DNA of 38,088 nucleotides from an uncultured Piscirickettsiaceae bacterium (lineage in GTDB: Bacteria; Pseudomonadota; Gammaproteobacteria; Methylococcales; Cycloclasticaceae), in the NCBI GenBank assembly GCA_913061075.1, contig CAJXSK010000005.1, positions 1-38,088 of the forward strand, given 5' to 3'. A program made the translations under genes and the position numbers. Within the stretch, counting starts at the first letter, position 1; every line of letters starts with the position of its first letter. The notes under the pieces were generated by a model, which did not search any database, was not told the DNA's origin, and saw only the letters and a list, made by a program, of their open reading frames with translations. Of the stretch, positions 1 through 27,984 are shown piece after piece.

Positions 1-49
1 ACGAGATAGGAGTCCGTCTCGTGGGCTCGGAGATGTGTATAAGAGACAG
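1..49 (+). other. Illumina Nextera i7 adapter (non-genomic)
   Basis: This is library-preparation sequence, not bacterial DNA. Bases 1-7 match the end of the P7 primer (ACGAGAT). Bases 8-15 (AGGAGTCC) look like the i7 index known as N705. Bases 16-30 are the Nextera read-2 primer segment, and 31-49 are the 19-bp Tn5 mosaic end AGATGTGTATAAGAGACAG. Genomic sequence begins at base 50. An untrimmed adapter at a contig tip is a common assembly artefact and should be removed before any analysis. Confidence 0.97.
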
Positions 50-79
50 CCCTAGCCCTCCCCCTAAATGGGGAGGGGA
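50..79 (+). repeat. C-rich hairpin repeat, copy 1
   Basis: The unit begins CCCTAGCCCTCCCCCTAAA and folds on itself: CCCTCCCC at 56-63 pairs with GGGGAGGG at 70-77 around a six-base loop. A closely similar unit lies at 199-230 and a diverged inverted one at 115-152. It looks like a dispersed intergenic repeat of the type found at contig ends. No coding potential is seen. Confidence 0.65.
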
Positions 80-114
80 TAAAGCGTGGCAATTTATATT
101 TTATTGTCTGCTCT

Positions 115-152
115 TTCCTCCTTTAAGGGTGAAGGTTGGGATGGGGGGGGGG
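115..152 (-). repeat. C-rich repeat, inverted diverged copy
   Basis: Read on the minus strand this stretch runs from a C homopolymer through CATCCCAACCTTCACCCTT to AAGGAGGAAA. It resembles the flanking repeat units in inverted orientation but has diverged. The plus strand holds a run of ten G at 143-152, whose exact length may be unreliable. Confidence 0.5.
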
Positions 153-198
153 TAGTCTATTCAATTATACTGTGTCGTATGTTCCAAGCGTTTACCCC

Positions 199-230
199 CA
201 CCCTAGCTCTCCCCCTAAAAGGGTAGGAGA
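199..230 (+). repeat. C-rich hairpin repeat, copy 2
   Basis: The unit begins CACCCTAGCTCTCCCCCTAAA and is followed by GGGTAGGAG, forming an imperfect hairpin. It is the same family as the unit at 50-79, in the same orientation. The rest of bases 50-260 shows no gene. Confidence 0.6.
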
Positions 231-260
231 CGCAATATAATGTGTTTTTTCTTCTGGCAT

Positions 261-290
261 AAAAAAGCAGTGGAACTTTCGTTCCACTGC
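261..290 (-). terminator. Rho-independent terminator of the envelope operon
   Basis: On the minus strand a perfect 10-bp stem, GCAGTGGAAC with GTTCCACTGC, closes on a GAAA tetraloop and runs into six T (plus-strand A run at 261-266). It lies about 30 bases after the DUF1329 stop codon. It therefore ends the YCF48/RND/DUF1302/DUF1329 transcription unit. Confidence 0.92.
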
Positions 291-319
291 TTTAGTACTT
301 CTTATGTTTTAACTACGTA

Positions 320-1741
320 TTATTGGTAATCGCGTAGTTGATCCACATCAAACATTTCTTCAGATACTTCTTCTTCACGATTGTCCCAGTTAGGCGTCAT
401 GTAAAGAGTAGAAGAACGCTGTGATACTTCGTTATTAACGATCACTGAACGCCATTGTGCATCACCTATAGAAGGCCTCCAAGCACGTGAATCATCCCAG
501 TTACGCAATGGGTTTCCGCGTGGATCCCATGTCATGTGGTACTGCATGTAATAGAATTCTTTATCGATCCAAGTACGACGTTTTGAATACTGATATTTAC
601 CAGTTTTGTCTACTATATCAAGAACCCAAACTGGACGAAGCTCAACTTCCATTGAAGCCCAACCACAGCTAGTAGAATCCATGACTTGTGCGTCATAAAC
701 ATAGCCAACTTCTGGTGTGGCAAGAATGAATGTTTGCTCAACCAATGTATATTCAAATTTTGATGTGTCAGTTTTTACCCAGTATGCACGCCAGTCGTCC
801 CAAGTTAACTCAATGCCTGAAGCAATTGGATCTTGTGAATCAGACCCTGTTAACAAACGAGTACGACGTAAGCTTGGAATAAACACTTTGAAGTCATCTT
901 CTTTGCCTTCTGCAGCATAACGTTGGCGAACACCTGCTAAACCACGGATATCGTTAGGTTCTAGGAAGAAAATTGAACCACCTTCAATAAATTCTTCTTT
1001 GCCATCCGCATCGCCCATTGGGCCAACATTTGAACGACCGTGATAATGCCACCACCATAAGTCAGCCTTATATTCACGATCAAGCTTACCGTCAGACGTA
1101 CAAGCATTCATTTCAATCGGGCTAAAATCTAGCGTATCTGTATTCACAGAGCTAGCTACATAATTCCAGTTTAATTCCACACCGTTTTTAGGATTTAAAA
1201 ATGGTATAGCAGTTGCGCCAGCACCAGACATCAACGCATTAGAACCATCTGGATATACTAACGAACCGCCCGTCGGACTAACTTTTATTTCAATGTTTTT
1301 ATCTCTTAGCTCTTTTGTACCCGCTAAGTAGCCCGTGTGTGGGTAATACGTATTAGTAGGAACAATTTTAACTTGCCCGATATTTCCCCATTCACTACCG
1401 ATATGGTCGTAAATTTCTTTTGGTAAGTATTCTTTTAACCAAGGGTAGTTCGCTTTGTTTTCAGGTGTAATCACTAAACCCGGCTTTAAGTCTGCTGGTA
1501 ACTTAGTCTTGTCGATTAAGTCATACGCATCATATCCACGTAGGTCTTTCCATTCTTTCGCTAAAGCAATCGCTTTAGGGTCAGAAATTAGCTTTACCCA
1601 TTTATCATAGTTAGGGTTGTTTTGCTCAGCGGCAAATGATTTCCATGCTTCAAGCGCTCTATTTGTATCAGCCATTACGGGTGCAGTCACTGATACAGCG
1701 GCTGCGAAACCAATTGCGGCTGCAATTTTATTCATTTTCAT
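320..1741 (-). CDS. DUF1329 domain protein, secreted
   Basis: The 473-residue product has a Sec signal peptide with a likely cut after VMA near residue 24. The rest is a soluble DUF1329 domain, rich in Trp and Tyr. There is no lipobox cysteine, so this copy is probably periplasmic rather than a lipoprotein. DUF1329 proteins are annotated as related to outer-membrane lipoprotein-sorting (LolA/LolB-like) folds, which bind lipid-like ligands, but no function is established. An AGGAG ribosome site precedes the ATG. It is the last gene of a four-gene minus-strand operon with DUF1302, RND and YCF48-like genes, a grouping seen repeatedly in hydrocarbon- and sterol-degrading proteobacteria. A role as periplasmic carrier or outer-membrane partner for a hydrophobic compound is inference. 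Confidence 0.88.
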   Translation of the reverse strand: MKMNKIAAAIGFAAAVSVTAPVMADTNRALEAWKSFAAEQNNPNYDKWVKLISDPKAIALAKEWKDLRGYDAYDLIDKTKLPADLKPGLVITPENKANYPWLKEYLPKEIYDHIGSEWGNIGQVKIVPTNTYYPHTGYLAGTKELRDKNIEIKVSPTGGSLVYPDGSNALMSGAGATAIPFLNPKNGVELNWNYVASSVNTDTLDFSPIEMNACTSDGKLDREYKADLWWWHYHGRSNVGPMGDADGKEEFIEGGSIFFLEPNDIRGLAGVRQRYAAEGKEDDFKVFIPSLRRTRLLTGSDSQDPIASGIELTWDDWRAYWVKTDTSKFEYTLVEQTFILATPEVGYVYDAQVMDSTSCGWASMEVELRPVWVLDIVDKTGKYQYSKRRTWIDKEFYYMQYHMTWDPRGNPLRNWDDSRAWRPSIGDAQWRSVIVNNEVSQRSSTLYMTPNWDNREEEVSEEMFDVDQLRDYQ

Positions 1742-1803
1742 AATTTAAATCTCCTGTTTTTACTTGCTAAATATTAGACCTATTTACTATCCAATATCTT
1801 TCG

Positions 1804-3726
1804 TTAGAACTGGTAAGTTAATGATATTTCAACAAAGTCAGAATTGTTCAATAGACCTAAAGGAACACTTTCTTTCTTAGCATCAAAATGCATCCACTCT
1901 ATACGTGGGCGCCAGCTATCACCGAAGTAGTTAAAGTCAACACGTTGACGGTAAAATGTACTGTCATTTGTGAAGTCTTCAATAAACAAACCTTCAAGTA
2001 CTAATCGTTGATTATCTAACGGAGCACTCCATAAGAACGTCATGTAGTTCTGATGATCTTCAACTGTACTAAAGCCATACGGGGCTTGAGCCATTAAACC
2101 TTCATCTGAATCATGTGTGTAGATATCAAATACTTGTAAGCTAGTAAAGATTGAACGCTCTTGAGAATCCCAACCTGGTACCCAGAATGGAAAATCAAAA
2201 CCAACCATTGTTGAGGTTACATCACTTTTAGTAATTGCACGACTTGGTATTACTGCCAACGCACCTGTTCCAAACTCATTGGGTGTTGTTGCACTAAATG
2301 GCACGGTAACTCCAACTGCTCCAGGGTTTACTATAGAACGATTAAAAGGCTTATCAAATTCTTGAGCAATCTCAAAACGCATTGAAGGTGATGAGTTTTT
2401 ACGTCCAAATTTCATAAAGTCAGCTAAATCACGCGTAAAAGTAAAACCAAGTAACTTTTGACGATAATCATAATCTAACTCAACTTGAGCTGTTACAGAA
2501 CAAGCTACACCAGCACCACCTGGGTCCAGAATTGGATCATTACAAGCGCCCCCTGTTGCAGCTGTTAGTGGACTAACAATAGGTGCAGCTGCTGCAATTG
2601 AACGTAACCAAGCTAAATAGCCACCCGTTGGGCCTAATAAATCTCCATGTACAATAGCTTCCGTATCCGATGCACTAAAACTTGCTGCTGGAGCTATACC
2701 ACTTGCACCATTGGCACCATCTCCAATATAAAGATCTAAGCCTCGTAATTTAAGTACGGGCAAATCTTGCATACCGTAGAATGCATTAATAGTAGCTAAG
2801 CCACCTAATGTTTCAAACTTTAAGCGAAGCGAGTACTCAGCATCTGAAAAACTCAATTTCCGAGCTTCATTTTCAGGAGTTTCGAATGCAAATCCTAGAT
2901 AGCCAAAACCTGAAACCGGGTCTGTTGAATCTGGCCACGGCAAACCGAATATACCACCTGAACTACGATCTGTAGGCGTCGGGTTGTTTATTATAAATGC
3001 AGAGTGGTGGACTTCTGGAACAAAGTTAAATTCTAACGTTGGGCGCTTCATGCCAATCGCTTCAAACGGTGCCGCCATACCTAACTTTTTCAAATTAAAA
3101 TCGGCTGATAACATCAATGCAGGTATGCGTAGTTCGTCTGAGTCACGGAATACAAATCGTTCACGTAAATCTTGCGCATGGAGCACATCCATTAGACGTA
3201 AACCATCTGACTGACCCCAACCACGTTGAAATTTACCAAACTTAACTGTGTATCTACGTTTAGGGTCGCGATATTTTACAGATAGCTCACGAATCACATC
3301 TTCCCAGTCATCTAAAACATCTAATTCATTTATTTTTGAACACTGGTTACTACCTGATGCAGAGCAATTAGTATCATTCAAATTATGTGGTAAATTTGTA
3401 AGAGGGTTTAGCCCTGCATTTGAACCTGCAAACCCACCGTTTGGCGCATCATAGCTAGTTATTTCTGATTGCAAATCACCACGCAACCAGAAGTTACCAA
3501 TAAATGACCAACTTTTGTTTGGGCGGTATGTTGTTTTTGATTCGATTAACCAGTTTGCTGGGCCTGCTTTATCCCCTTGACCTGGTAAATCATAAAGGAC
3601 TGATGCCCCTACTTTAATACGGCCACTTTGGGTTAAGCCCTTAATGCCGGTGTCGATTGCGAATGCCGGTGCGGCAATTGCAAATCCTAATACGGCTGCT
3701 AGGCCGGTTTTTATTATTGTCTTCAT
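1804..3726 (-). CDS. DUF1302 outer-membrane protein
   Basis: This 640-residue protein starts with a clear signal peptide ending APAFA (cut near residue 23). It ends in TYQF, the terminal-aromatic signature of beta-barrel outer-membrane proteins recognised by the Bam machinery. The body alternates short hydrophobic and polar stretches as expected for beta strands, and length and composition fit DUF1302. It sits between the RND gene (137-base gap) and DUF1329 (62-base gap) in one minus-strand unit, with an AGGGGA ribosome site before the ATG. DUF1302 and DUF1329 genes are nearly always adjacent. The pair plausibly forms the outer-membrane part of a transport route for hydrophobic molecules, but the substrate cannot be read from the sequence. 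Confidence 0.88.
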   Translation of the reverse strand: MKTIIKTGLAAVLGFAIAAPAFAIDTGIKGLTQSGRIKVGASVLYDLPGQGDKAGPANWLIESKTTYRPNKSWSFIGNFWLRGDLQSEITSYDAPNGGFAGSNAGLNPLTNLPHNLNDTNCSASGSNQCSKINELDVLDDWEDVIRELSVKYRDPKRRYTVKFGKFQRGWGQSDGLRLMDVLHAQDLRERFVFRDSDELRIPALMLSADFNLKKLGMAAPFEAIGMKRPTLEFNFVPEVHHSAFIINNPTPTDRSSGGIFGLPWPDSTDPVSGFGYLGFAFETPENEARKLSFSDAEYSLRLKFETLGGLATINAFYGMQDLPVLKLRGLDLYIGDGANGASGIAPAASFSASDTEAIVHGDLLGPTGGYLAWLRSIAAAAPIVSPLTAATGGACNDPILDPGGAGVACSVTAQVELDYDYRQKLLGFTFTRDLADFMKFGRKNSSPSMRFEIAQEFDKPFNRSIVNPGAVGVTVPFSATTPNEFGTGALAVIPSRAITKSDVTSTMVGFDFPFWVPGWDSQERSIFTSLQVFDIYTHDSDEGLMAQAPYGFSTVEDHQNYMTFLWSAPLDNQRLVLEGLFIEDFTNDSTFYRQRVDFNYFGDSWRPRIEWMHFDAKKESVPLGLLNNSDFVEISLTYQF

Positions 3727-3863
3727 TTGTTTCCCCTTTCTTCGAAGATATTTCTATTTATATTACAAATAATTTCTAACACGTTATTTATACGCGCTTT
3801 TAATTACCAATACCACTTTTTTTTACCACTTTTACAACACTGTTGCTTTGTTGCGACGCATCA

Positions 3864-6179
3864 TTAATCCTTAAATAATGCTTTCGGCCGAAACGCAGTT
3901 AACGCGGCGGGTACGAATAATAACGAACCTAGCATATTCATAAATAACACCATGGCTAACAACATGCCCATTTCTGCTTGGAATCGAAGCGGTGATGCAA
4001 CTGCCCAAGGCATTAACGGTGCAATCATGGTAATTGCCGTGATAAAGATTGCGTTGCCTGCTGTTAAAAATGCACGGTGTACCGCTTCGTGTACGCTTTT
4101 AACGTCTAGGTTTCGATACTCTTCTTTAATCCTATCAATCATGTATATGCCATAATCCACACCCAAACCCACACCTAGCGCTGCTAGCGGCAAGGTACTA
4201 ACGTTTAGGCCCACTTCTTTCCATGCCATAAATGCATAGGTAAGCGAGTTCGCTGTTGCCAAGCTGAACAGCAACACTAAACCTGTTGTTACAGAGCGAT
4301 AGTACAGCACAATACAGAAGAAAATGACGCATGCGATGGCGACCATTGTTTTAATATTTGAATTAACAATTTCTTCATTCAACGCTTCAACAATACCGAC
4401 TTGCCCGCCCATATACAAGAAGTCTGCATCACTGATAACTTCTTTTTCATTTGCGAAGAAAGCATCTAGGTTATCCCTCAATTTTTGTATCGTTGGGCGA
4501 CTATGATCTTCTAAGAAAAATGAAATATTGCCTATTTCCCATTCTTTATTGGTAAAGGCAGCGAAATCACCAGGCTCACCCCTTGAGCGGAACATATAAA
4601 TATCAAAACCTACTTCTTCTTTCGTGTCTGGAATAATCGCATACGACGGATCACCCTCAAATAACACCGAATTAACTAATTTAATTACTGGGACCAAGCT
4701 GATGGCTGGACGTACTTCTTGCATGTGCTCGAATATATAACGATCCATCGCTTCAGTTTGGTGGTACACCGTTGGGTCTAACATCGTATCCTTCTCACCC
4801 TCAACATACACTTGAACCATATCCGTACCTAGGAACGAGAAGCGAGAGTTGATGGAGGCTACATCTTGGTTAAAACGCGCTTCTGGCCATAAAATGGCCG
4901 AACCTTTAGTATCGCCAACCGTTAAATTACCGGCATACCAGACACCTCCGCCCAGCAATAATGAGGTGATGAAGATCATCGTCCACGCATGATCTTCCAT
5001 ATTAATCACTGCACCCCACATTTTGTTTAGGATAACCGAACCTGTTTTATGCGATTTTGGCGGCTTAATTAAGCACATAACAGCTGCTGCAAAAATGAGC
5101 GCTGGTATGACAGACAGTAACCACAGACTACAAATAACAGCTAAAGATTCAATACTTGGAATAGCAACGAGCGCCAGCACACCAAAACCGGCCGCATCGG
5201 TAATAATGGCTGCGGTACTTGGCACTAGCAGCAATGCCAAACCTTTTCGTGTACATTCTCTAGTATCTTTTGGCGGCTCATCACAGGCCGAAATATTATC
5301 GAGTATTCGCGTGGTGAACTGCACACCGTGCGATAACACAATGGCAAAAATAAACGCCGGCAACAAAATAAGCAATGGGTCCAAGTTATAACCCACAAAA
5401 CCCATGCCGCCTAACCCCCATATGGTAGCCACGGTAGCAGTAAACATAGGTACGAATACACCAACCCATGTTTTAAAATATAAGAATAATATAATGGCGA
5501 TAATCAAAATTGATGCCGCTAATATATTAAATACTGAATCTAACGACTGATAAATATAGCCTAAAAGGATAGGGCGCCCAACGAAATTAATTTCTAAATT
5601 TTCGCCTTCATACTTTTCGCGCATGTCTAAGAAAAAATTTAGGACCTTGAGTTTATCCACTTCGTCTCTAAAATCGGCAATAATAATGGCTGATGTTTCA
5701 TCGTTAGATACTTGAATACCACGGTATTGCTTATTAACGAATTGACGTAACCGTGTCATGTCTTTTTCGTTTGCTGGCAAGTCTGGCCACAACAAAGCAT
5801 CTACGCCCACACGGCCGCCACCACCTGAAATAGCTTTGGTTTTTCTTAAAACTAATGATTGACTTAAATGCCTGTATGTATCCTCGTTGTAGTAAACATC
5901 TTCAGCAATTTCTTTGTACTTTTCTAGATACTCTAAGTTATAGATATTACCTTTTTTGTTTTTAACTTCAATTAGCGTTGTGTTTGCGCCGCCGAATTGT
6001 TCGCCAAAGCGCAAAAACAATTCAACATTGTTTGCGCCTGCTGGCAACATCTCTTCTAACACCACTTTAAGCGATAACCCTTTATAGGCGTAATAACCAG
6101 GAATAATCGTAATAATCGTTAATAAAATTGCGACGAAGACCGGCTTTTTCGAAATAAATGTCGATAATTTATTAATCAT
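3864..6179 (-). CDS. RND/MMPL-family transporter
   Basis: The 771-residue inner-membrane protein has the two-fold RND layout. There is one N-terminal helix (near residues 13-33), a periplasmic loop and a helix block around 215-370. A second lone helix near 400-417, a second loop and a final block from about 607 to the end follow. The second half has the usual acidic membrane motif GVGLGVDYG (Asp near 675); the matching position in the first half reads LSHGVQ, with no acid. The start is chosen at the ATG that overlaps the upstream stop by one base (TAATG) and follows GGGGAG; a TTG five codons earlier is less likely. No membrane-fusion or TolC gene is adjacent, so it is closer to lipid/hopanoid-type MMPL exporters than to drug pumps. 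The substrate is unknown. Confidence 0.9.
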   Translation of the reverse strand: MINKLSTFISKKPVFVAILLTIITIIPGYYAYKGLSLKVVLEEMLPAGANNVELFLRFGEQFGGANTTLIEVKNKKGNIYNLEYLEKYKEIAEDVYYNEDTYRHLSQSLVLRKTKAISGGGGRVGVDALLWPDLPANEKDMTRLRQFVNKQYRGIQVSNDETSAIIIADFRDEVDKLKVLNFFLDMREKYEGENLEINFVGRPILLGYIYQSLDSVFNILAASILIIAIILFLYFKTWVGVFVPMFTATVATIWGLGGMGFVGYNLDPLLILLPAFIFAIVLSHGVQFTTRILDNISACDEPPKDTRECTRKGLALLLVPSTAAIITDAAGFGVLALVAIPSIESLAVICSLWLLSVIPALIFAAAVMCLIKPPKSHKTGSVILNKMWGAVINMEDHAWTMIFITSLLLGGGVWYAGNLTVGDTKGSAILWPEARFNQDVASINSRFSFLGTDMVQVYVEGEKDTMLDPTVYHQTEAMDRYIFEHMQEVRPAISLVPVIKLVNSVLFEGDPSYAIIPDTKEEVGFDIYMFRSRGEPGDFAAFTNKEWEIGNISFFLEDHSRPTIQKLRDNLDAFFANEKEVISDADFLYMGGQVGIVEALNEEIVNSNIKTMVAIACVIFFCIVLYYRSVTTGLVLLFSLATANSLTYAFMAWKEVGLNVSTLPLAALGVGLGVDYGIYMIDRIKEEYRNLDVKSVHEAVHRAFLTAGNAIFITAITMIAPLMPWAVASPLRFQAEMGMLLAMVLFMNMLGSLLFVPAALTAFRPKALFKD

Positions 6180-7495
6180 TATTTTTCTCCCCAACGGTTT
6201 GAAATCAGCTTAACCGCACCGGGTGCCGCTATATTTAATTTGGTATTAAACGTCATATCGGTCGTATTGCCTTTTACTATAAGACCACCTATTCCAGCTG
6301 CCCAAATATCACCCGATGGCGTTACACTGACGCCCCCCATCCATATGTATGGCAAAGGAAATTCTTCTGCTGGCTTTAAACTATCAACCGGATAAGTGAC
6401 CAGAACTGGGGGCTCTTCTTCTGTCAGCTTATCTATCACTTTTTTGGCTTCTTTAACAACTGCCTCAACACCGTCCACAGGTATTTCTACTGTAGGCTCA
6501 GACACATTCGCTGCAACCTGTAATAAGGTTGATACGCCAACAACATACGCACGCCCATTTGACGCCGTTGTCACCCCGTATAGATGCTCTTTTATTTCAC
6601 TGTCTACTCGTGTTACTTGGTAATCTACTTCCGTTTCTGGAAAGGGTACGTATTCTTTTGCTACGTATGCTTTTTTACGACGCTTTGCTTTTTTCATCGC
6701 TTTAGCTTCTGCTTTAGCATGCTTCGCTAAACGCATCTTAGTCACTTCATCGCGTTGCTCTTGCGTAGATTGCATCAATGTATAGATACCACCATCCAAA
6801 CCAACCGCTATTGCACCGTCACCAAAGTAATCCACAGAGAGGAGGGTGCCAGGATCATCATTAAAACTAACCATCCATAAATTTCCAGCATCTTCTGTAT
6901 GCGCCACCATGCCGAACTCACCCACTAAAATGGCTGTGTTAGCGTCTTTTGCTATAACACCATGAAGCCTTGGTAAATCACGGCCTTCAAAACCTGTAAG
7001 ATGTTGGCTTTCCCATGTTTTTCCGCCATCTGCTGTATGCCAAATATGCGTATCATGCCCAACTGCCCAACCATTATTTAGGTCTGCAAAGGATATATCT
7101 CTTAAATACACGCCTGCATCTGTTTTTTGAATTTCCCATGTTAGCCCAGCATCCGCCGTATGCAGAATAGACCCACGGTGACCAACTGCCCAACCGTTCT
7201 GCTCATCAACAAACGACATCTTACGAATTAACTCATTGGTGCCCATGTAAATGCCAGACCACGTTTCGCCGCCATCTTCTGTTTTGAATAAAGACCCCGA
7301 ATAGCCCGCAATGTAGCCGACTTTATCGCTGGGGAAATCTACGGCGTATAAATTATCTGGCCAGAAGCGATGAAATTTACCTTCTTCGGCCGATGCTTCA
7401 TCTGCAGCAAAAACAGCTGTGGATAACATACATGCCAAAAAACATGCGCTAATAAAGTGCATAGCCTTATTATTTATACTAAGTGTTTCTTTCAC
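6179..7495 (-). CDS. YCF48-like periplasmic beta-propeller protein
   Basis: The product (438 residues from the chosen GTG) has a signal peptide ending VFA near residue 30. BNR/Asp-box turns of the form T-x-D-x-G-x-T-W follow at about 72, 113, 154 and 200, typical of the YCF48/HCF136 propeller fold. The GTG at 7495 is chosen because AGGGGA lies five bases before it and it gives a compact signal peptide; a TTG 19 codons upstream has no such site. A very Lys/Arg/Ala-rich segment interrupts the propeller near residues 253-280. In plants and cyanobacteria YCF48 helps assemble photosystem II. Here it is the first gene of an RND/DUF1302/DUF1329 operon, so a scaffold or assembly role for that envelope complex is likelier, by inference. 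Confidence 0.85.
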   Translation of the reverse strand: MKETLSINNKAMHFISACFLACMLSTAVFAADEASAEEGKFHRFWPDNLYAVDFPSDKVGYIAGYSGSLFKTEDGGETWSGIYMGTNELIRKMSFVDEQNGWAVGHRGSILHTADAGLTWEIQKTDAGVYLRDISFADLNNGWAVGHDTHIWHTADGGKTWESQHLTGFEGRDLPRLHGVIAKDANTAILVGEFGMVAHTEDAGNLWMVSFNDDPGTLLSVDYFGDGAIAVGLDGGIYTLMQSTQEQRDEVTKMRLAKHAKAEAKAMKKAKRRKKAYVAKEYVPFPETEVDYQVTRVDSEIKEHLYGVTTASNGRAYVVGVSTLLQVAANVSEPTVEIPVDGVEAVVKEAKKVIDKLTEEEPPVLVTYPVDSLKPAEEFPLPYIWMGGVSVTPSGDIWAAGIGGLIVKGNTTDMTFNTKLNIAAPGAVKLISNRWGEK

Positions 7496-7732
7496 ATTTT
7501 TCCCCTGTACAACGAAATTATTATCGTAATGTTTTTTTAACTGAATTACCAAAGCAATTTGCTTGCCAAACCTCTCAATCCAAGCAATGAAGCTGTTCTT
7601 GTTGATTTTTGTTATACGTACGCTTCGAGCATACTATAAAAGTTTTATTATTTGGTAAAAGTATTTATAGTTATTTACTGATTTTAATCACTTTGATACG
7701 TTAGTGCCCAACCTTAAAAGGATACTCAAACC

Positions 7733-8713
7733 ATGACGTTAAGTACCACAGCTATCATTCACCAAACAGGTGACGCCTCAGTTTTTTCTATTGAACAAAC
7801 AAAGGTCGCTTTACCTGGCGCCCATGAAGTAAACATTACGCATACTGCTATTGGTGTTAACTTTATAGATACGTATTTTCGCTCAGGCTTATATCCTATT
7901 GATTTGCCAGCTGTCTTGGGTGATGAAGCAGTCGGCATTATCGACACCATTGGCGACGGAGTTACTGAGTTTTCAGTTGGCCAGCGTGTTGCTTATTCCG
8001 CAGCAAAGGGTGGGGCGTATAGCGAACGCCGCACTATAGGCATTAATGAAATTGTTGCCGTGCCCGATGGTATAGACGATAAAGCCATCGCCACCAGCTT
8101 ATTACGCGGCATGACGGTTGAATATTTGTTTTGTCGATTGTACGAATTAAAAGCGGGCGAAACGATACTCATTCACGCGGCCGCCGGTGGTATTGGCACT
8201 ATTGCTTGCCAATGGGCTAAGTCCATTGGCGCTACCGTCATTGGCACTGTTAGTTCCGCTGAAAAAGCTGTTATTGCCAAACAAAATGGCTGCGATTTTG
8301 TTATTAACTACAGTAAAGAAGACTTTGTTGCCGAAGTTACTAGAATAACCAACGGTAAAAAAGTAGATGTGGTGTACGACGGTGTTGGTAAAGACACGTT
8401 TATGCAATCCTTAGATTGTTTGCGTGTTCGCGGGCTAATGGTCAGTTTTGGCAATGCGTCAGGCAAGCCAGACCCTATGGATGTGTTGGAGCTATCTAAA
8501 CGTGGCTCATTATATTTAACCCGCCCAACTTTATATCACTACACACGAAACCGCGAAGAACTGGTTGAAAGTGCCGCACGATATTTGAACATGTTGGAGC
8601 AAGGCAAAATTAATATTCAAGTAGGCAAGGAGTTTGCGTTAAATGATGTTGCTGATGCGCATCGTTATTTGCTTCAGCGTGACCGAGTTGGTAGCCCGGT
8701 GCTTATTCCTTAG
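7733..8713 (+). CDS. NADPH:quinone oxidoreductase, zinc-independent MDR family
   Basis: The 326-residue protein is a medium-chain dehydrogenase/reductase of the quinone oxidoreductase (QorA) type. It has the substrate-side motif VNFIDTYFRSGLY (42-54) and the nucleotide-binding motif AAAGGIG (149-155). The cysteines of zinc alcohol dehydrogenases are absent. Length is standard for QorA. It would reduce quinones or alpha,beta-unsaturated carbonyls with NADPH in the cytoplasm. It is divergent from the YCF48-like operon across a 237-base spacer and nearly touches the convergent methyltransferase (15 bases). A possible sigma-70 promoter, TTGTTA - 17 bases - TACTAT at 7609-7637, lies about 95 bases upstream of the ATG, but this is weak. 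Confidence 0.9.
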   Translation: MTLSTTAIIHQTGDASVFSIEQTKVALPGAHEVNITHTAIGVNFIDTYFRSGLYPIDLPAVLGDEAVGIIDTIGDGVTEFSVGQRVAYSAAKGGAYSERRTIGINEIVAVPDGIDDKAIATSLLRGMTVEYLFCRLYELKAGETILIHAAAGGIGTIACQWAKSIGATVIGTVSSAEKAVIAKQNGCDFVINYSKEDFVAEVTRITNGKKVDVVYDGVGKDTFMQSLDCLRVRGLMVSFGNASGKPDPMDVLELSKRGSLYLTRPTLYHYTRNREELVESAARYLNMLEQGKINIQVGKEFALNDVADAHRYLLQRDRVGSPVLIP

Positions 8714-8728
8714 CTGCCCTGCTTGAGT

Positions 8729-9364
8729 TTACTTTTCGACCGTATCACCATTAAATCTAGACAGCTCAATTCCGCTACCGACACTCAATAAAACAGAATC
8801 CATTTTGTCATGGCTTTTCACGTGATTTCTATAACTATCCGCTGTTTCACGAACACTAGCAGGGTAACGCATATTGTCTGCGGCGATCATCGCACCGTCG
8901 GCTAGTTTGGGATAAATCAAGTCGAAGCAGGGGATATAAAACCGTTTCCACAAATCCAATAATACAAAATCGATGGGATCTGATATATCTGCTAATGAGT
9001 CGAGCGCATCACCATTTTTAAATTCTACAAATTCCAATAACCCTGCTTTTTGCAGCATATTAGTCGCATAATCTTGCTTTTTAGCATCTAACTCTAAACT
9101 TATCACTTTGCCACCGTGTTGGCTAACGGCATCTGCAAACCAAATCGTTGAATAGCCAAACGATGCTCCCACCTCAACCACTGTTTTACATTCTGCTTGC
9201 TGAATAAGCAGGTGAAGTAGCTGGCCTGTTTGTGGGCCTACTGGCAATAAAAATTCATCAATTCGCGTATCAAAGTCTTCGCTAGACAGGCTTTTCATTA
9301 AGGCATTTTCTTGCTCTGTTCGTACGTGGTATTCATCTAAAACTGACTGAACTTGAGTTCTCAT
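8729..9364 (-). CDS. Class I SAM-dependent O-methyltransferase
   Basis: This 211-residue protein resembles the caffeoyl-CoA/catechol O-methyltransferase family. The SAM-binding motif I reads VVEVGASFGYST (around 60-71), followed by the acidic loop SLELD and the motif DFVLLD. A later ADNM is close to the metal-binding DN of this family. It starts by a four-base ATGA overlap with the end of the EamA gene, so the two are probably translationally coupled. A role in methylating catechol-type intermediates would suit the neighbouring dioxygenase genes but is only inferred. Confidence 0.82.
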   Translation of the reverse strand: MRTQVQSVLDEYHVRTEQENALMKSLSSEDFDTRIDEFLLPVGPQTGQLLHLLIQQAECKTVVEVGASFGYSTIWFADAVSQHGGKVISLELDAKKQDYATNMLQKAGLLEFVEFKNGDALDSLADISDPIDFVLLDLWKRFYIPCFDLIYPKLADGAMIAADNMRYPASVRETADSYRNHVKSHDKMDSVLLSVGSGIELSRFNGDTVEK

Positions 9365-10344: not shown

Positions 10345-10893
10345 TTAAAAATATACGTTCATATTTTTGCTAATCAACACATTTTGCTTTAACAAAATAC
10401 GACGCCTTGCCAATTTCAACACACCATCTTCACGGCGCCAAAGATCTTTTCTATTACCAATCAGCGTATCTTCATCACGCTCTAAACGATTGCGATACAC
10501 CAAGAAGTTGGAATACACCAATACTTCATCTGGATTAGCCGTTGTTTCCACCTCTATATTAGAAATGATATGACAGTAACGCGTTGCAGGATCTTCTGAC
10601 CATGCCGTACCCGTTTCTAACCGATCAATTCGTTTACCTAATTCCTCTAAATTATCGTTGTAATAGGCCATCCGACTTAAATCGTTCATCTGGTCGGTTT
10701 TGTCTTTACGGTAACGCGTTTCGATGCCCGGCATAAAATAATGCACATCAGCCGTCATCATGTCGGTCCATTTTCTATATTCTTCATCATCAAGAAAACG
10801 CATTTCTCGATATAGCCGTTGTTCAACTTCTGAAATAAGCTCCACAGACGTTGCCGCTGTCCCTTCTTCTTTAAAATAAGCAACTATACTCAT
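10345..10893 (-). CDS. Aromatic-ring-hydroxylating dioxygenase, beta subunit
   Basis: The 182-residue protein fits the small subunit of Rieske non-heme iron dioxygenases, a cystatin/SnoaL-like fold that supports the alpha3beta3 hexamer and carries no cofactor. Family-typical stretches are the N-terminal helix with EQRLYREMRFLDDEEY and the C-terminal strand KLARRRILLKQNVL. It begins nine bases after the alpha-subunit stop, behind a strong AAGGAGG ribosome site, and is followed by a terminator. Stoichiometric co-expression with alpha is expected. Confidence 0.92.
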   Translation of the reverse strand: MSIVAYFKEEGTAATSVELISEVEQRLYREMRFLDDEEYRKWTDMMTADVHYFMPGIETRYRKDKTDQMNDLSRMAYYNDNLEELGKRIDRLETGTAWSEDPATRYCHIISNIEVETTANPDEVLVYSNFLVYRNRLERDEDTLIGNRKDLWRREDGVLKLARRRILLKQNVLISKNMNVYF

Positions 10894-10902
10894 GATGCCT
10901 CC

Positions 10903-12270
10903 TTAAGCCTTTTTCATGCTAGGTATATCGCGCGTTGCGCGACCATTTAGCTGACTTTTATGGCGCTCTGGCACATCATCCCAACCTTGTGCATTCATCA
11001 TATCTGCCCAACGTTGGTAGAATAGGCGCTGGTTAGAATCATTATATTGACCACGATATATCGTTCCCGGCATATCTGGGTGATCAATTTTTCGGCTAAT
11101 ACCACAGCCGTAATGTAGTTTTTCCTGACGAGTCACCACGCCGCGGTTGACTGTTGTACAGTTTTCCCAATTTTCGCCATCGTCCATTTCAAACGCGCCA
11201 CCTGGCCCAAAAGTACACATCACACCTTTAGTAATGTCATCTTTAATTTCTTCTGCCATTTCTTTATTCACAATCACAAAGGTTTTAAGCTCTAGCTCAT
11301 ACGGCCCTTTCGGGTTCCATGTTCTAAAGGTATGAATACCCGGTAAAAAAGACACGTTAGGGAAAATTGACGCTGATGCCACCGATCCAAATATTTTTGA
11401 CCGCACTTCTCCTAACCGTTTAGCCATTTGTGGACGTATGCGCTCGTAATATTCCATCACTTTTGGCCGACCCAATAAGAAAATATCACCAACACCTTCC
11501 ATACCAAACTCCCAACCATGGCCGTTTACACTGGCATGAAATGAGTTTTGCATATCAACCGGCGGAAAAGGCTCGCCATTGTTCATGGCTCTACAGCCTG
11601 AATCGTGCGTCCATCCGGCGTGTAATGCATCGCCAATAAAGTTTTCGACACCAAATTTCCAGTTCGCGCCGATCACTGATTTAATCGTGCCGCCAACAAA
11701 TTCAGTGCCGCCTTCTTCGTTATCGAGTAGGGCATCTAAATACCAGCGGAAATCGCCTAAAAAAGTTTCAAGCGACGGCGCGGTTTCATCAAACGTTGCG
11801 AAAATAAGACCTTTATAACTATCGATTTGCGCTACTTGTTTTAAACCCCAGTCTGCTTTATTAATATCGCCTTCTTCATAGCAATATTCTTCGTGCATAC
11901 CTGTCAATTCGCCAGCCGTATCAAACGACCAGCCATGATAGTTACAAACAAAACGACGTGAATTACCCGCGTCCGCAAAACAAACTTTATTACCTCGATG
12001 TGTGCATGAGTTTAAAAAGGCTTTAACGGTATTATCTTTTTGGCGCACCACAATCACACTGTCTTCACCCATGTGCGTGGTGATAAAATCACCCGGTTTA
12101 GGGATTTGTGAGTCGTGCGCTAAGAATAACCAGCATCGAGCAAAAATTTGGTACAGCTCTTGCTCGTAAATAGCTTGATCAGCAAAAATTCTGCGATCTA
12201 CCCAACCTTTTTCGATATCCATGTATCGACTGTAATCTGGCCTTGGGCCGCTCATGTTTTCTATTGGCAT
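10903..12270 (-). CDS. Rieske aromatic-ring-hydroxylating dioxygenase, alpha subunit
   Basis: The 455-residue catalytic subunit would insert both atoms of O2 into an aromatic ring to give a cis-dihydrodiol. The Rieske [2Fe-2S] ligands are Cys89, His91, Cys109 and His112 (CTH...CNYHGW). The catalytic motif GDALHAGWTH supplies the bridging Asp214 and iron ligands His217 and His222. The third ligand is one of the Asp residues at 363-364. The pattern GDxxHxGWTH resembles the naphthalene/PAH dioxygenase branch, while the operon's SDR looks like benzoate-diol dehydrogenases, so the substrate is left open. A GAGGAAG site precedes the ATG. No ferredoxin or ferredoxin reductase is encoded nearby, so electrons must come from components elsewhere. 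All metal ligands are intact. Confidence 0.94.
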   Translation of the reverse strand: MPIENMSGPRPDYSRYMDIEKGWVDRRIFADQAIYEQELYQIFARCWLFLAHDSQIPKPGDFITTHMGEDSVIVVRQKDNTVKAFLNSCTHRGNKVCFADAGNSRRFVCNYHGWSFDTAGELTGMHEEYCYEEGDINKADWGLKQVAQIDSYKGLIFATFDETAPSLETFLGDFRWYLDALLDNEEGGTEFVGGTIKSVIGANWKFGVENFIGDALHAGWTHDSGCRAMNNGEPFPPVDMQNSFHASVNGHGWEFGMEGVGDIFLLGRPKVMEYYERIRPQMAKRLGEVRSKIFGSVASASIFPNVSFLPGIHTFRTWNPKGPYELELKTFVIVNKEMAEEIKDDITKGVMCTFGPGGAFEMDDGENWENCTTVNRGVVTRQEKLHYGCGISRKIDHPDMPGTIYRGQYNDSNQRLFYQRWADMMNAQGWDDVPERHKSQLNGRATRDIPSMKKA

Positions 12271-12350
12271 TTAAACTTCCTCGTGTAGTTTTTCTATTTT
12301 TCACTCTCAATACTAAAGCGTTATTTTGAATCAATCAATGCTTTAAATCA

Positions 12351-13130
12351 CTAACCAATGCCACCGCCAGCGACATTAATTGTTTCACCCGTTATGTAAG
12401 ACGCTTCATCCGCCGCTAAAAAACAAATCGCTGCCGCTTCTTCTTCTGGTGTGCCGTAACGTTTCATTGGTGTGTCGCGAATGGTTTGCTCAATCACGCC
12501 TTGCATGCCCGCTTTGTCTACCTCAGTCGTTTCGCCCGTATGTCTTGGAATCGCTCGTTCGCCCTGGTCAATACCGCCCGGGTTTACGCAATTTACTCGA
12601 ACACCGTGTTCAGCTAATTCCAACGCCATACAGGTTGTTATGGCCTGCACCCCGCCTTTAGCAGCGGAGTAGGGCACACGATTTATTCCACGGGTTGCTA
12701 CAGAACCTACATTCACAATCGCGCCAAATTTTTGTTCCATCATGTAAGGAATAACAGCTCTGCAACACCACAGAGTGGGCCATAGTGACCGGTTAATTTC
12801 TTTTTCTATTTGGTCATCAGGGTATTCCCAAAAGGGTTTTGCCCAAATCGTACCGCCCACATTGTGTACCGATACATCAATACGACCAAATGCATCCATC
12901 GTTGCTTGCATGACCTTTTTTGCGCCCGCGCTGGTTTCTAAATCGGCCATACAAATCTCAGCAATACCGCCTTCATCGCGTATTTGTTGCTGTACCTGCA
13001 AGGCTTGTTCTTCCGCACGATCGGCAATCATCACCTTACCGCCTTCACTTGCAAACCGTAGTGCGCAGGCTTTTCCTATCCCTTGCGCTGCACCGGTTAC
13101 GACGACGACTTTATCTTTAAAACGTTGCAT
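12351..13130 (-). CDS. SDR dehydrogenase, cis-dihydrodiol (BenD-like)
   Basis: This 259-residue short-chain dehydrogenase has the dinucleotide motif TGAAQGIG (12-19), Asp37 at the end of strand 2 (favouring NAD+ over NADP+), and the catalytic set Asn90, Ser143, Tyr154 and Lys158. Stretches such as VGGTIWAKPF and TLWCCRAVIP recall BenD/XylL, the dehydrogenases that rearomatise dihydroxycyclohexadiene carboxylates to catechols. It is the first gene of the operon with the dioxygenase subunits, preceded by AAGGGG, so it probably oxidises their product. It is divergent from a glutathione S-transferase across 89 bases. The exact diol cannot be read from the sequence. Confidence 0.88.
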   Translation of the reverse strand: MQRFKDKVVVVTGAAQGIGKACALRFASEGGKVMIADRAEEQALQVQQQIRDEGGIAEICMADLETSAGAKKVMQATMDAFGRIDVSVHNVGGTIWAKPFWEYPDDQIEKEINRSLWPTLWCCRAVIPYMMEQKFGAIVNVGSVATRGINRVPYSAAKGGVQAITTCMALELAEHGVRVNCVNPGGIDQGERAIPRHTGETTEVDKAGMQGVIEQTIRDTPMKRYGTPEEEAAAICFLAADEASYITGETINVAGGGIG

Positions 13131-18342: not shown

Positions 18343-19989
18343 TTACTTATCTTTTCCAGCTTCAATACGCTTCATAATGAATGTTTGCTGAGCAATTGTT
18401 AAGACATTATTAACAATCCAATACAACACCAAACCCGCTGGGAAAAAGGCGAAGAAACCCGTAAACATGATAGGTAATAACTGCATCATTTTCTTTTGCA
18501 TTGGGTCAACCGGTGCTGGGTTCAACCGTTGTTGCAAGAACATGGTAATACCGTAAATAACCGGCAATATAAAGTAAGGGTCTGCAGCAGAAATATTATC
18601 AATCCATAACGCAAAAGGTGCCTGACGCATCTCTACACTTTCAAGCAACGTCCAATAAAGCGCAATAAACACCGGAATTTGAATGAGGATAGGGAAACAA
18701 CCGCCTAATGGATTAATTTTTTCCGTTTTATACAGCTCCATCATCGCTTGGTTAAGCTTTTGCTTATCGTCTCCAAACTTTTCTTTCATGGCGACGATTC
18801 TTGGCTGCACAATCTTCATGTGTGCCATTGATTTATAGCTTTTTTCAGACAACTTAAAGAAGAGGGCTTTAATTGTTAACGTCACTAAAATAATAGCAAC
18901 ACCCCAGTTACCAACAAAGTCGTGATAAAAACTAAGTAACCAGAAGATAGGCTCTGCAATAATGGTGAGCTTTCCATAGTCAACCATTAGCTCAAGCCCA
19001 GGGGCTGTTGCTGCTAATTGATCTTGTAATTTTGGCCCTGCATATAATACTGAATTAAATGTTCCGGTTTCGCCCGCTGCGACTGTTTTGCTGGGTGAGT
19101 ACGCACCAATAACGAACAAACCACCGTCAATTGCTTTCGTGTAATAACTGTATTGATTTTCTTTTTCAGGTACCCAAGCAACGCCAAAATAATGCTGAAT
19201 CATTCCAGCCCATCCACCTACGGCTTTAACATCAAGGTTTTCATCTTGCATGTCGTCGTAATCAATTTTTTGGTACTTTTCTTCATCGGTATACAAAACA
19301 CCGCCGGTATACGTGTATATAAACGAGTTAGCCTTTTTTTCTGTAAAGTCATTGCGTTTTAGCTGTAGGTATTCACGCGCTGACCAGCTATTAGTGCCAG
19401 CGTTTTTAACCTGTGTTTCTACATCTATTTTATAACTGCCTTTTGTAAATACGTATGTTTTAGTTACTAATACGCCATCAGCTGTACGCCACGTTAGAGG
19501 TACTCGTAAGGTTTCGTCTTGAAGCGCATATTTGTTTTGCGTTGTTGACCAAATTGCATGGTGGTTTGGGCTCTCGCCGGCTTCGCTCACAAGGCCTGAT
19601 TCAACAACAAATATTTTTGGCGCATTTTCATTAAGCAATTGAACCCTTGCGTCCTTACCTTTTTCTTCAGGGTATTCCAAAAGCTGTAACTGACTTATGC
19701 CACCACCTTTCGTGTTTATTTCTAGGTTATAAACATCGGTAATAACAGAAATTATTTGGCCTTGTGAAGCGTTTTGAGCCGATTGGTCACTGAGCCCAGA
19801 CATATTAGGCGCAGAATTAGAACCGCTTGTTTTAGGAATATCAGTTTGCTGCGCGCCGGTATTACCAGACGCCTGTTCTGTAACAACAGGTGCTTCTGGT
19901 GGAAGCACGTAGTCTTTTTGCCATGCTTGCCAAATTAATACTGATACGAAAGCTAGCGCCGCAAAAAGTAAGGTTCTTTGATTATCCAT
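18343..19989 (-). CDS. yidC: Membrane protein insertase YidC
   Basis: YidC inserts and folds inner-membrane proteins, alone or with SecYEG. The 548-residue product has the gram-negative layout: an N-terminal helix (about 6-22), a low-complexity Gln/Ser/Asn linker, a large periplasmic beta-sandwich domain, and five C-terminal helices with the conserved 60KD_IMP core. That core includes NPLGGCFPILIQIPVFIALY and the loop before it. Its start overlaps the yidD stop by eight bases. Confidence 0.98.
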   Translation of the reverse strand: MDNQRTLLFAALAFVSVLIWQAWQKDYVLPPEAPVVTEQASGNTGAQQTDIPKTSGSNSAPNMSGLSDQSAQNASQGQIISVITDVYNLEINTKGGGISQLQLLEYPEEKGKDARVQLLNENAPKIFVVESGLVSEAGESPNHHAIWSTTQNKYALQDETLRVPLTWRTADGVLVTKTYVFTKGSYKIDVETQVKNAGTNSWSAREYLQLKRNDFTEKKANSFIYTYTGGVLYTDEEKYQKIDYDDMQDENLDVKAVGGWAGMIQHYFGVAWVPEKENQYSYYTKAIDGGLFVIGAYSPSKTVAAGETGTFNSVLYAGPKLQDQLAATAPGLELMVDYGKLTIIAEPIFWLLSFYHDFVGNWGVAIILVTLTIKALFFKLSEKSYKSMAHMKIVQPRIVAMKEKFGDDKQKLNQAMMELYKTEKINPLGGCFPILIQIPVFIALYWTLLESVEMRQAPFALWIDNISAADPYFILPVIYGITMFLQQRLNPAPVDPMQKKMMQLLPIMFTGFFAFFPAGLVLYWIVNNVLTIAQQTFIMKRIEAGKDK

Positions 19990-20212
19990 GTTTTTTTTCT
20001 ATCGTTGGAAGGGGGTCTAGCCCACCTGTACATAAGGGCTGACATCTAACCAACCGTTTGATTGTTAAGTAACTTGCGGTAAACACGTTATATTGTTGAA
20101 ATGCCTGTAATGCATATTCAGAGCATGTGGGGTAAAAACGGCAACGACTTGCCATCATGGGGCTTATAAAAAAGCGATAAAACTTAATTAAATAAATAAA
20201 TGGTTTATTCAT
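19982..20212 (-). CDS. yidD: Membrane protein insertion efficiency factor YidD
   Basis: The 76-residue protein carries the family signature CRFYPTCSEYA and a short amphipathic N-terminus (YLIKFYRFFISPM). YidD associates with the inner face of the membrane and helps YidC-dependent insertion. It overlaps rnpA upstream and yidC downstream by eight bases each, so the whole run is translationally coupled. Confidence 0.96.
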   Translation of the reverse strand: MNKPFIYLIKFYRFFISPMMASRCRFYPTCSEYALQAFQQYNVFTASYLTIKRLVRCQPLCTGGLDPLPTIEKKHG

Positions 20213-20570
20213 TTTTCAGTAATTTATCAAAGTGTTTATTAATCGAACCCGACAAAACCGCTTTAGATATATTTCCAGCCTTATGTCGGCACAATACGAC
20301 GATATCAAAGCCCCTTAATGACCCCTTTCTCAAACGGAAAGCCTCTCGAACGACCCGTTTAATCTGATTTCTTAACACCGCCTTCTTTACTTGCTTTTTG
20401 GCTATGGCAAGCCCTAGTTTTGCCTGAGGTTCTTTAGAATGTCTAACCAAAACAGTTAGATATTCATCAGAAAACCGTTTGGCGTTTTTAAAAACCCGTG
20501 AATACTCATCTGCCGTATTAAGGCGGTCTGCTTTTAAAAAAGTATGTCTTATTTCTTTTTCAAAAATCAA
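20205..20570 (-). CDS. rnpA: Ribonuclease P protein component
   Basis: RnpA binds the catalytic RNA of RNase P and helps mature tRNA 5' ends. The 121-residue product has the basic family motif [14 protein letters not shown] in its middle. The best start is TTG at 20570, which shares TTGA with the rpmH stop (a four-base overlap). No ATG precedes the conserved region and no good Shine-Dalgarno site is evident, so translation probably depends on ribosomes finishing rpmH. The exact N-terminus is the least certain part of this call. Confidence 0.94.
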
Positions 20571-20701
20571 GCAGTTAAGCGAACCCGGCCTTTTGCACGT
20601 CTTGCATTAATAATTTTACGACCAGATTTTGTTGCCATACGAGATCTAAAACCGTGTGTACGCGCTCTTTTTAAATTACTTGGTTGGAATGTTCTTTTCA
20701 T
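20567..20701 (-). CDS. rpmH: 50S ribosomal protein L34
   Basis: Reading the minus strand from ATG at 20701 gives a 44-residue basic protein starting [18 protein letters not shown] and ending GRVRLTA, the standard L34 sequence and length. It is too short for usual ORF-size cutoffs. It is the first gene of the minus-strand run leading away from the origin region and is divergent from dnaA across 247 bases. Confidence 0.99.
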
Positions 20702-20948
20702 TGTTTATTACTCTTAAATAAATGTTGTTTGGCTAAATATTAATCAAAGTATCTCTCAACCCTGTTGATTGATAAGGTTCTTTGAATGGAAAAAGACCGC
20801 GAAGAATACGTTTTATTTCGCATAAAGTCAATGTTTTATTAGTTTTCAAGGCTATCGTTAAATACCAAAACGTTTTTATTAATTGCCTGTGGATAACTTT
20901 TTGTTTTAGGTTTATCCTAGACCTTTAAAAAATAACAAAAGGTTTATT
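20702..20948. other. rpmH-dnaA intergenic region, candidate oriC
   Basis: This 247-base divergent spacer is A+T-rich and holds one perfect DnaA box (20888-20896) plus a weak one, TTATCCTAG, at 20912-20920. It also has repeated TTTTATT stretches. In pseudomonads and relatives this is where the chromosomal origin lies, and it also holds the rpmH and dnaA promoters. With only one strong box the origin assignment is tentative; the dnaA-dnaN spacer is the alternative. Confidence 0.5.
20888..20896 (-). promoter_or_regulatory. DnaA box
   Basis: TGTGGATAA is the exact reverse complement of the consensus DnaA box TTATCCACA. It lies 52 bases before the dnaA start codon, a position suited to DnaA autoregulation, to origin function, or to both. 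Confidence 0.8.
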
Positions 20949-22277: not shown

Positions 22278-22446
22278 CAGTAATAACCTGTGTGTATCTA
22301 TTTAGTTGAATTAATACACAAATTACCCACAGGATTAAAGTGACTTATTCAACTATTTATCATTGAACTAACCATATGTTTTAATTAGCATATTCAGAAC
22401 AACTAACCGATTTGGCTTCCCTTATAGTAATAATAAGATTTTATAT
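22278..22446. other. dnaA-dnaN intergenic region with DnaA-box-like site
   Basis: The 169-base spacer is A+T-rich. It holds TTACCCACA (22323-22331), one mismatch from the DnaA box, and an inverted repeat TGTGTAT (22291-22297) / ATACACA (22314-22320), flanked by CCTGTG and CACAGG. Such spacers serve as origins or origin parts in many bacteria. It may also carry a dnaN promoter. Confidence 0.45.
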
Positions 22447-23547: not shown

Positions 23548-23568
23548 AAGAAAAACACGTTATTTTTT

Positions 23569-24642: not shown

Positions 24643-27060
<2,418 letters not shown>

Positions 27061-27075
27061 AAACTGGAGATAGTT

Positions 27076-27972: not shown

Positions 27973-27984
27973 ATAGGCAAGCTT

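Follow-up and report, generated by a model that had tools for sequence, protein, structure and literature searches.

The first 38 kb of contig C5 (CAJXSK010000005.1) from the 2.26 Mb genome of an uncultured Piscirickettsiaceae bacterium, a stretch of 38,088 nucleotides that we call the window, contain a cluster of four genes lying on the minus strand between positions 7495 and 320. In the order of transcription these genes encode a YCF48-like propeller, a pump of the RND/MMPL type, a putative outer-membrane barrel and a DUF1329 protein; they are designated here after AmeABCD, the exporter of Castellaniella defragrans with which they are compared below. The features of the locus are the following:

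6179..7495, minus strand: AmeC-type secreted YCF48-like propeller (PSII_BNR 98.7 bits; GTG start at 7495, reading frame open from 7552)
3864..6179, minus strand: AmeD-type RND/HAE3 inner-membrane pump (MMPL 87.3 bits; ATG start at 6179, reading frame open from 6194)
1804..3726, minus strand: AmeA-type outer-membrane protein, a probable divergent DUF1302 barrel (Pfam match of an orthologue, hhalign comparison, termini)
320..1741, minus strand: AmeB-type secreted DUF1329/LolA-like protein (DUF1329 66.2 bits, cut-off 23.1; LolA_like 44.7 bits)
264..293, minus strand: intrinsic terminator (13-pair stem, loop of 4, T run on the minus-strand reading)
7496..7732, minus strand: presumed promoter region, separating the operon from a divergently transcribed quinone reductase gene (by position only)

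The initial annotation of this DNA had described four co-oriented, partly overlapping genes closed by one terminator. The minus-strand open reading frames (ORFs; 7552-6179, 6194-3864, 3726-1804 and 1741-320) and the hairpin at 264-293 with its T run agree with this description, except that the overlap is confined to the propeller and pump genes, where the ATG at 6179 shares one base with the YCF48 stop; the remaining intergenic gaps amount to 137 and 62 bases. A Shine-Dalgarno-like sequence lies ahead of each quartet start, with AGGGGA upstream of the plausible GTG start at 7495 and GGGGAG upstream of the plausible ATG start at 6179. The divergent quinone reductase gene begins at 7733. Promoter-like matches within positions 1-9000 are fewer than expected (14 vs a mean of 22.1 in shuffles), and Rfam and tRNA scans over the window gave no matches. 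The lone short tandem repeat of the window (6668-6708, 18-base unit, 2.3 copies) lies inside the YCF48 gene, in a Lys/Ala-rich stretch that is missing from relatives outside the genus.

Passages of Puentes-Cala and Harder (2018, PMC6394551) describe AmeABCD as a tetrapartite exporter for monoterpene tolerance, composed of AmeA (DUF1302), AmeB (DUF1329/LolA superfamily), AmeC (COG4447, YCF48-like) and the HAE3 RND pump AmeD. According to the same passages, AmeABCD is up-regulated on alpha-phellandrene, and ame deletion reduces growth on, and tolerance to, unfunctionalised monoterpenes. The ame genes of strain DSM 12141 were located via a published primer stretch, and the corresponding ORFs comprise 605, 451, 329 and 813 residues, the last two starting earlier than the published 316 and 787. 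The window pump aligns with AmeD at 29% identity over 759 residues (E 2e-69) and the propeller with AmeC at 26% over 183 residues (E 7e-13). As judged from these sequence comparisons and those given below, homology of the four parts to AmeABCD is clear for the pump and the propeller and weaker for the carrier and the barrel. The window thus contains an AmeD-lineage pump with a YCF48 partner and a DUF1329 partner in one co-oriented cassette. Both systems unite the same four families, as far as the divergent window barrel can be counted as DUF1302, in a single cassette beside catabolic genes, have a pump of the same HAE3 lineage, and are devoid of a membrane fusion protein (MFP) and TolC. They differ in gene order (C-D-A-B in the window, A-B-C-D in AmeABCD) and in surroundings, AmeABCD adjoining monoterpene genes and the window quartet dioxygenases; moreover, AmeD's closer relative in the window genome is not the window pump but that of another quartet, at G000:C5:97.7-104.3 kb. 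We consider the locus to encode a four-part system of the AmeABCD type that moves hydrophobic compounds across the envelope, with a probability of about 0.8. The initial observation is confirmed as real and sound. Its description as an uncharacterised system is overstated, since AmeABCD has a deletion phenotype (PMC6394551) and similar sets are reported in passages of PMC6449761 and PMC13101534; the system is already described in kind.

The assignment was examined in terms of conserved linkage. We searched 114 genomes sampled from the class with a profile built from 12 AmeD-lineage pumps, and the pump scores at E<=1e-60 separated into those of at least 575 bits (AmeD lineage) and those of at most 326 bits (control HAE3). 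The window pump scored 991 bits against no more than 326 for other HAE3 pumps, being itself a row of the profile. AmeD-lineage pumps were found in the window's own genome and in 16 of the 113 others, these 16 contributing 26 loci, of which two represent genes in two pieces. At each of these 26 loci and at all 16 control HAE3 loci, neighbours were scored with profiles derived from other loci. The four genes occur together at 16/26 AmeD-lineage vs 0/16 control loci (Fisher p 4e-5), and 14 of the 16 complete sets are single-strand quartets. Taken one by one, YCF48 is found near the pump at 22, DUF1329 at 19 and DUF1302 (above 75 bits) at 19 of the 26 loci, each vs none of the 16 controls, and 23 loci carry at least one partner gene. 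One linked system spanning the envelope had been expected, with lack of linkage in other genomes as the finding that would speak against it; the linkage of the four families is conserved on these counts. The reported absence of TolC and membrane-fusion genes is likewise borne out: no MFP/TolC-type domain of the kind that accompanies HAE1 tripartite (AcrAB-TolC) pumps was detected in 29 window proteins scanned (ORFs below 120 residues and five overlapping ORFs excluded), and each of the three quartets that the genome contains is free of OEP and HlyD_D23 matches out to a distance of 30 kb, other adaptor families not having been searched.

Whereas passages of PMC6394551 call the organisation of the quartet conserved, several transcription orders are seen here: A-B-C-D is the commonest, and C-D-A-B (window, L023, L060, L149), C-D-B-A (L116), B-A-C-D (L066), B-A-D-C (L113) and D-B-A-C (L123) also occur. 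On plasmids, 10 loci were opened out of 47 matching records, and 8 of these 10 have the whole set of four families annotated (Aromatoleum, Pseudomonas putida YC-AE1, P. aeruginosa H15, Azospirillum, Methylibium, Vibrio alfacsensis, Massilia and P. aeruginosa LYT4). The Methylibium propeller is labelled as a photosystem II assembly factor and is accompanied by two DUF1329 genes, and in LYT4 an insertion sequence element separates the gene pairs. In the Comamonas 7D-2 plasmid the pump alone is annotated, a YCF48 piece being recovered by profile, and in the unannotated Indioceanicola plasmid profiles gave a pump, a propeller and a DUF1302 piece on the opposite strand. A plasmid search queried with the window barrel gave no match. 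At the control loci a short LolA_like gene is commoner than at the AmeD-lineage ones (11/16 vs 2/26, those two lying next to another, distinct pump), and DUF1302-like matches that are weak, at 19-60 bits, occur at 10/16; the theme of a pump with a LolA-type carrier and a barrel may therefore extend beyond the AmeD lineage. Two more HAE3-type pumps of the window genome (L026 5914-8984; L027 5478-8602) each overlap a short LolA_like gene.

The DUF1302 label given at first to the barrel finds partial support. The window protein itself has no match in Pfam at E<=10, DUF1302 included, whereas a same-genus orthologue clears the DUF1302 cut-off (28.6 bits, cut-off 23.2, E 1e-6); among the eight aligned window-type barrels (window + 7 orthologues), two match DUF1302 at E<=1. 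Comparison of the window-type barrel profile with three AmeA-type proteins (hhalign, single comparison) aligned 67 columns with a probability of 84% and E 7.8e-6, centred on the motif GKFQRGWGQSDGLR..D.LHAQDL. The window protein has a signal-peptide-like start and ends in ...SLTYQF, which we take to be the C-terminal pattern of outer-membrane barrels. A PDB profile search with the barrel returned chance-level matches only (best E 0.94). Based on the orthologue, the profile comparison and the termini, we take the window barrel to be a very divergent DUF1302 protein that has drifted beyond the reach of Pfam. For the DUF1329 protein, a profile built from 10 relatives finds LolA-like chains among the solved structures, 9tp6 with E 1.6e-7 and 3bk5 weakly (E 0.011). 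An orphan DUF1329 gene of the same genome (L025 6201-7604, G000:C3), about 50% identical to that of the window, adjoins a gene for Lnt (apolipoprotein N-acyltransferase).

Related gene sets have been reported elsewhere. Passages of PMC6449761 describe COG4447-COG1033-PF07044-DUF1302 operons in Betaproteobacteria that belong to aromatic-degradation regulons under AphS, AphR and AphT; these operons comprise the four families to which the window proteins are assigned, are suggested to help against toxic aromatic compounds, and belong to organisms other than the window host. In P. putida, PP_0765 (DUF1302), PP_0766 (DUF1329), PP_2018 (periplasmic) and PP_2019 (efflux transporter) are stated to be required on Tween 20 (passages of PMC10866462), the former and latter pairs lying at separate loci by gene number, as opposed to the single operon of the window; PP_2018 and PP_2019 are likened to window genes by their description, their families being unnamed in those passages. 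Predicted contacts, the other check proposed at the outset, are already in print for these four proteins, the first two of which carry the names DUF1302 and DUF1329: weak for the DUF1329 protein with both the barrel and the transporter, and strong between the transporter and the periplasmic protein (passages of PMC10866462). Finally, the highly expressed 'Nanopod' cluster of the benzene degrader ORM2a contains a porin-like protein, DUF1329, YCF48 and an MMPL transporter (passages of PMC13101534). It differs from the window quartet in its host (Desulfobacterota), in a porin-like protein that is not called DUF1302 and in two additional proteins, and its direction of transport is stated there as unconfirmed.

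Counting that of the window, the genome carries three complete quartets. Of the other two, one (L023; C2:74.5-81.4 kb, order C-D-A-B) has in its flanks a ketoacid-oxidoreductase-type gene, a desaturase and a Rieske oxygenase; after the other (L022; C5:97.7-104.3 kb, order A-B-C-D) come Porin_O_P and YceI genes. Noted beside the L023 quartet (L023 1903-5394 and 15985-17541) were a ketoacid ferredoxin-oxidoreductase-type gene and an HpaB hydroxylase; the former recalls COG4231, listed among regulated genes in passages of PMC6449761. A pump tree calculated by a quick method from 61 rows (41 AmeD-lineage and 20 other HAE3) places the 41 AmeD-lineage rows, the window pump among them, on one side of a branch with an SH-aLRT (Shimodaira-Hasegawa-like approximate likelihood ratio test) support of 100. 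The window pump and its orthologue form a long separate branch whose position within the lineage is not fixed, the L022 pump groups with AmeD and two others (support 97), and the L023 pump groups with two foreign pumps, L116 and L114 (support 100). On this tree the family shows at least three deep branches, all of them present in one small genome, and the window copy branches off deep within the AmeD lineage. The 27 of 41 loci with all four genes on one strand were used to compare whole quartets. Distance-matrix correlations among the quartet genes (0.82-0.94) are inflated by shared ancestry, and we therefore relied on nearest neighbours: for L023 the nearest relative of all four genes is the foreign quartet L116, at 36-55% identity, which shows joint inheritance of the quartet for L023 only.

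Window-type barrels are present in 8/18 genomes of the genus, some of which are incomplete, and in seven congener loci the order of the quartet is the same over whatever part the contigs cover; tandem window-type DUF1329 duplicates were seen in two congeners (L050 5842-9080; L052 6540-9474). Outside the genus, the window-type pump used as query against 369 genomes of the class recovered one true window-type member, on a 4.4 kb contig from another family (L146 1-4413, G360:C88; pump 71%, barrel 51%, DUF1329 61%, with pump and DUF1329 incomplete), which reflects either a transfer or mis-binning, the two not being distinguishable. Within the window type, the pump is the best conserved part in four congeners, at 87-89%; the least conserved parts include the propeller, at 55-60%, and the barrel, at 61-66%, the neighbouring quinone reductase showing 73-75%. 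The pump is again the best conserved in the L023 type (89-98%). In the L022 type, however, the barrel (80-88%) equals or exceeds the pump (81-82%) in 2 of 4 loci, and therefore the better conservation of the pump is not a general rule.

Several results weigh against the assignment to an AmeABCD-type system, or against its being used for export. In pairwise comparisons the DUF1329 protein matches AmeB with E 0.001 only and the BLAST match of the barrel to AmeA is not significant (E 0.8); structure predictions for the barrel and the DUF1329 protein are of low confidence, with predicted local distance difference test (pLDDT) values of 30.1 and 36.3. The partner set is incomplete at 10 of the 26 AmeD-lineage loci, and the pumps of L111, L119 and L120 have zero partners in the approximately 18 kb fetched; among the other misses, L115, L118 and L122 lie on contigs that break off close by. 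The four genes of the window quartet do not share a single nearest foreign quartet, and neither do those of L022. As for direction, the Tween 20 requirement in P. putida (passages of PMC10866462) fits uptake as well as export.

In the mechanism that we propose, the presumably proton-driven AmeD-lineage pump would pick up its hydrophobic cargo from the periplasmic face of the inner membrane, with the YCF48 propeller sitting on the pump as an adaptor or assembly factor. By way of the propeller as adaptor, the cargo would be handed to the LolA-fold DUF1329 protein, which may either ferry it through the periplasm or bridge to the outer membrane and would dock at the DUF1302 barrel, the latter letting the cargo cross the outer membrane. 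Because of the AmeABCD phenotype, we favour export as the more probable direction, which would limit membrane toxicity. A transport in the opposite sense, with the barrel taking up hydrophobic substrates, the DUF1329 protein carrying them and the RND protein delivering them to the inner membrane for the neighbouring dioxygenases, is a possibility that we hold to be rather unlikely. RND pumps are exporters by precedent. Uptake would agree with the growth requirement of P. putida, Tween 20 being a substrate that is not obviously toxic (passages of PMC10866462), with the impaired phenanthrene growth of a Delftia DUF1329 deletion (as cited in passages of PMC13101534), and with the congener quartets, which precede a gene of pyrroloquinoline quinone (PQQ)-dehydrogenase size (5/5) and then a ring-hydroxylating dioxygenase pair (4/5). 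It is less easily reconciled with the behaviour of the ame deletion strain, which is inhibited by high limonene even on acetate and shows slightly higher Nile Red accumulation after treatment with carbonyl cyanide m-chlorophenylhydrazone (CCCP; passages of PMC6394551).

Improbable, in our view, is a transporter of a cell-made lipid (hopanoid or surface lipid) to the outer membrane, similar to HpnN, for which the oily-substrate phenotypes would be secondary. The LolA fold binds lipids. In addition, the pump has weak similarity to HpnN, sterol and MmpL exporters, and its best matches among solved structures are the mycobacterial MmpL3/4/5. HpnN and MmpL3 belong to the same superfamily as the window pump, whose Asp-Tyr in transmembrane helix 10 (TM10) aligns with MmpL3; HpnN is stated in passages of PMC6394551 to work without AmeABC-like partners. 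Yet the pump falls far below the cut-offs of HpnN (NCBIfam TIGR03480, 37.7 vs 751.85 bits) and of the sterol exporter BstA (19.6 vs 1400 bits); the window type has the patchy occurrence within the genus given above, and the response of AmeABCD to alpha-phellandrene (passages of PMC6394551) also speaks against a lipid of the cell as cargo. The pump scores below the cut-off of the HAE3 model TIGR00921 as well (140.1 vs 351.9 bits), and its membership of HAE3 in the broad sense is based on the published placing of AmeD and on our own tree. A classical tripartite RND efflux pump that borrows its MFP and TolC from elsewhere is hardly credible: the genome does carry OEP and HlyD_D23 genes, but the nearest lies about 32 kb from one quartet and about 129 kb from that of the window, the pump is of the MMPL/HAE3 type, and dedicated partners are conserved instead.

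For the AmeABCD-type system, the pump alignment further reveals a residue signature. AmeD-lineage and other HAE3 rows were split by profile score and not by the signature residues; residue numbers count from the TTG at 6194 (those from the ATG start are lower by 5), and TM numbers are assigned by comparison with known RND pumps, an assignment that we assume to hold here. The sites concerned are:

5319..5333, minus strand: TM4 signature S288-H289-x-x-Q292, 41/41 AmeD-lineage vs 0/20 other HAE3
5196..5198, minus strand: D333 in TM5, candidate relay acid, D in 34/41 AmeD-lineage vs T in 20/20 others
4143..4157, minus strand: TM10 motif D680-Y681-x-x-Y684, aligned to both MmpL3 Asp-Tyr sites

Position 289 is His in 41/41 AmeD-lineage rows, and in the 20 other HAE3 pumps Asp (11), Asn (4), Glu (2), Ala (2) or Leu (1). 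Gln at position 292 and Tyr at position 684 are each found in 41/41 AmeD-lineage rows vs His in 20/20 others, whereas position 680 is Asp in 61/61 rows. The minority residues of the AmeD lineage at position 333 are Asn (5), Glu (1) and Ala (1). Both repeat sites carry Asp-Tyr in MmpL3, whereas in the AmeD lineage only that of TM10 does. We read this signature as reflecting a changed proton relay. It was not found in the passages of PMC6394551, nor in titles and abstracts from a full-text search that left most subscription journals outside. TM4 SH..Q, TM10 DY..Y and usually the TM5 Asp thus tell AmeD-lineage pumps from the other HAE3 pumps compared and name residues to mutate. It is conceivable, if speculative, that RND pumps of the AmeD lineage serve the Gram-negative envelope in a second manner, with a LolA-type carrier and a DUF1302 barrel in place of the adaptor-TolC tube, and with a rewired relay of His (TM4), Asp (TM5) and a single Asp (TM10) instead of the usual polar or acidic TM4 residue; such an arrangement might go with hydrocarbon uptake and not export.

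How oily compounds cross the envelope of Gram-negative degraders is poorly understood, and the window cluster is now placed in a family with published phenotypes. The present analysis adds counts of linkage set against controls, a structure of three branches and a signature for the pump. Passages of the 2018 paper give the direction of transport as export, those of the 2024 paper speak of substrate transport and leave it open; this direction has become directly testable.

As to the cargo, the nearby dioxygenases had been taken to point to hydrophobic compounds. Hydrophobic compounds remain likely, whereas the dioxygenase neighbourhood is mainly a genus-level feature. In congeners a gene of PQQ-dehydrogenase size follows the quartet at all five loci reaching there (Pfam-tested in two), with a dioxygenase pair and a dehydrogenase beyond it at four of them. 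As a family-wide marker this neighbourhood is not supported: 0/26 AmeD-lineage class loci match the window dioxygenase subunits in the fetched stretch, any of 8 catabolic query proteins being matched at 6/26 vs 0/16 controls; the queries were single sequences, so that misses are likely. A dioxygenase-subunit match was found in two (L147, L148) of six later-fetched loci, whose pumps are the next best by the window-type profile, and annotated dioxygenase genes in 1/10 plasmid loci. Ten flanking genes from five loci, identified by Pfam, have no common theme (GatB, Fic, two histidine kinases, a DUF5666 protein, a lipase, UvrD helicase, glutamate dehydrogenase, AMP-binding and enoyl-CoA hydratase). 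Judged from the neighbouring genes only, the cargo in the window organism is probably an aromatic or other hydrocarbon, aromatic because a phenylpropionate-dioxygenase-like pair and a BenD-like dehydrogenase lie nearby. In the window itself, positions 10345-13130 encode a ring-hydroxylating dioxygenase pair likest HcaEF (3-phenylpropionate/cinnamate type), its alpha subunit far below the equivalog cut-off, and a BenD-like diol dehydrogenase. Further along, positions 18343-28350 form an origin-type region with YidC, dnaA, dnaN, recF and gyrB, the quartet lying about 13 kb from dnaA.

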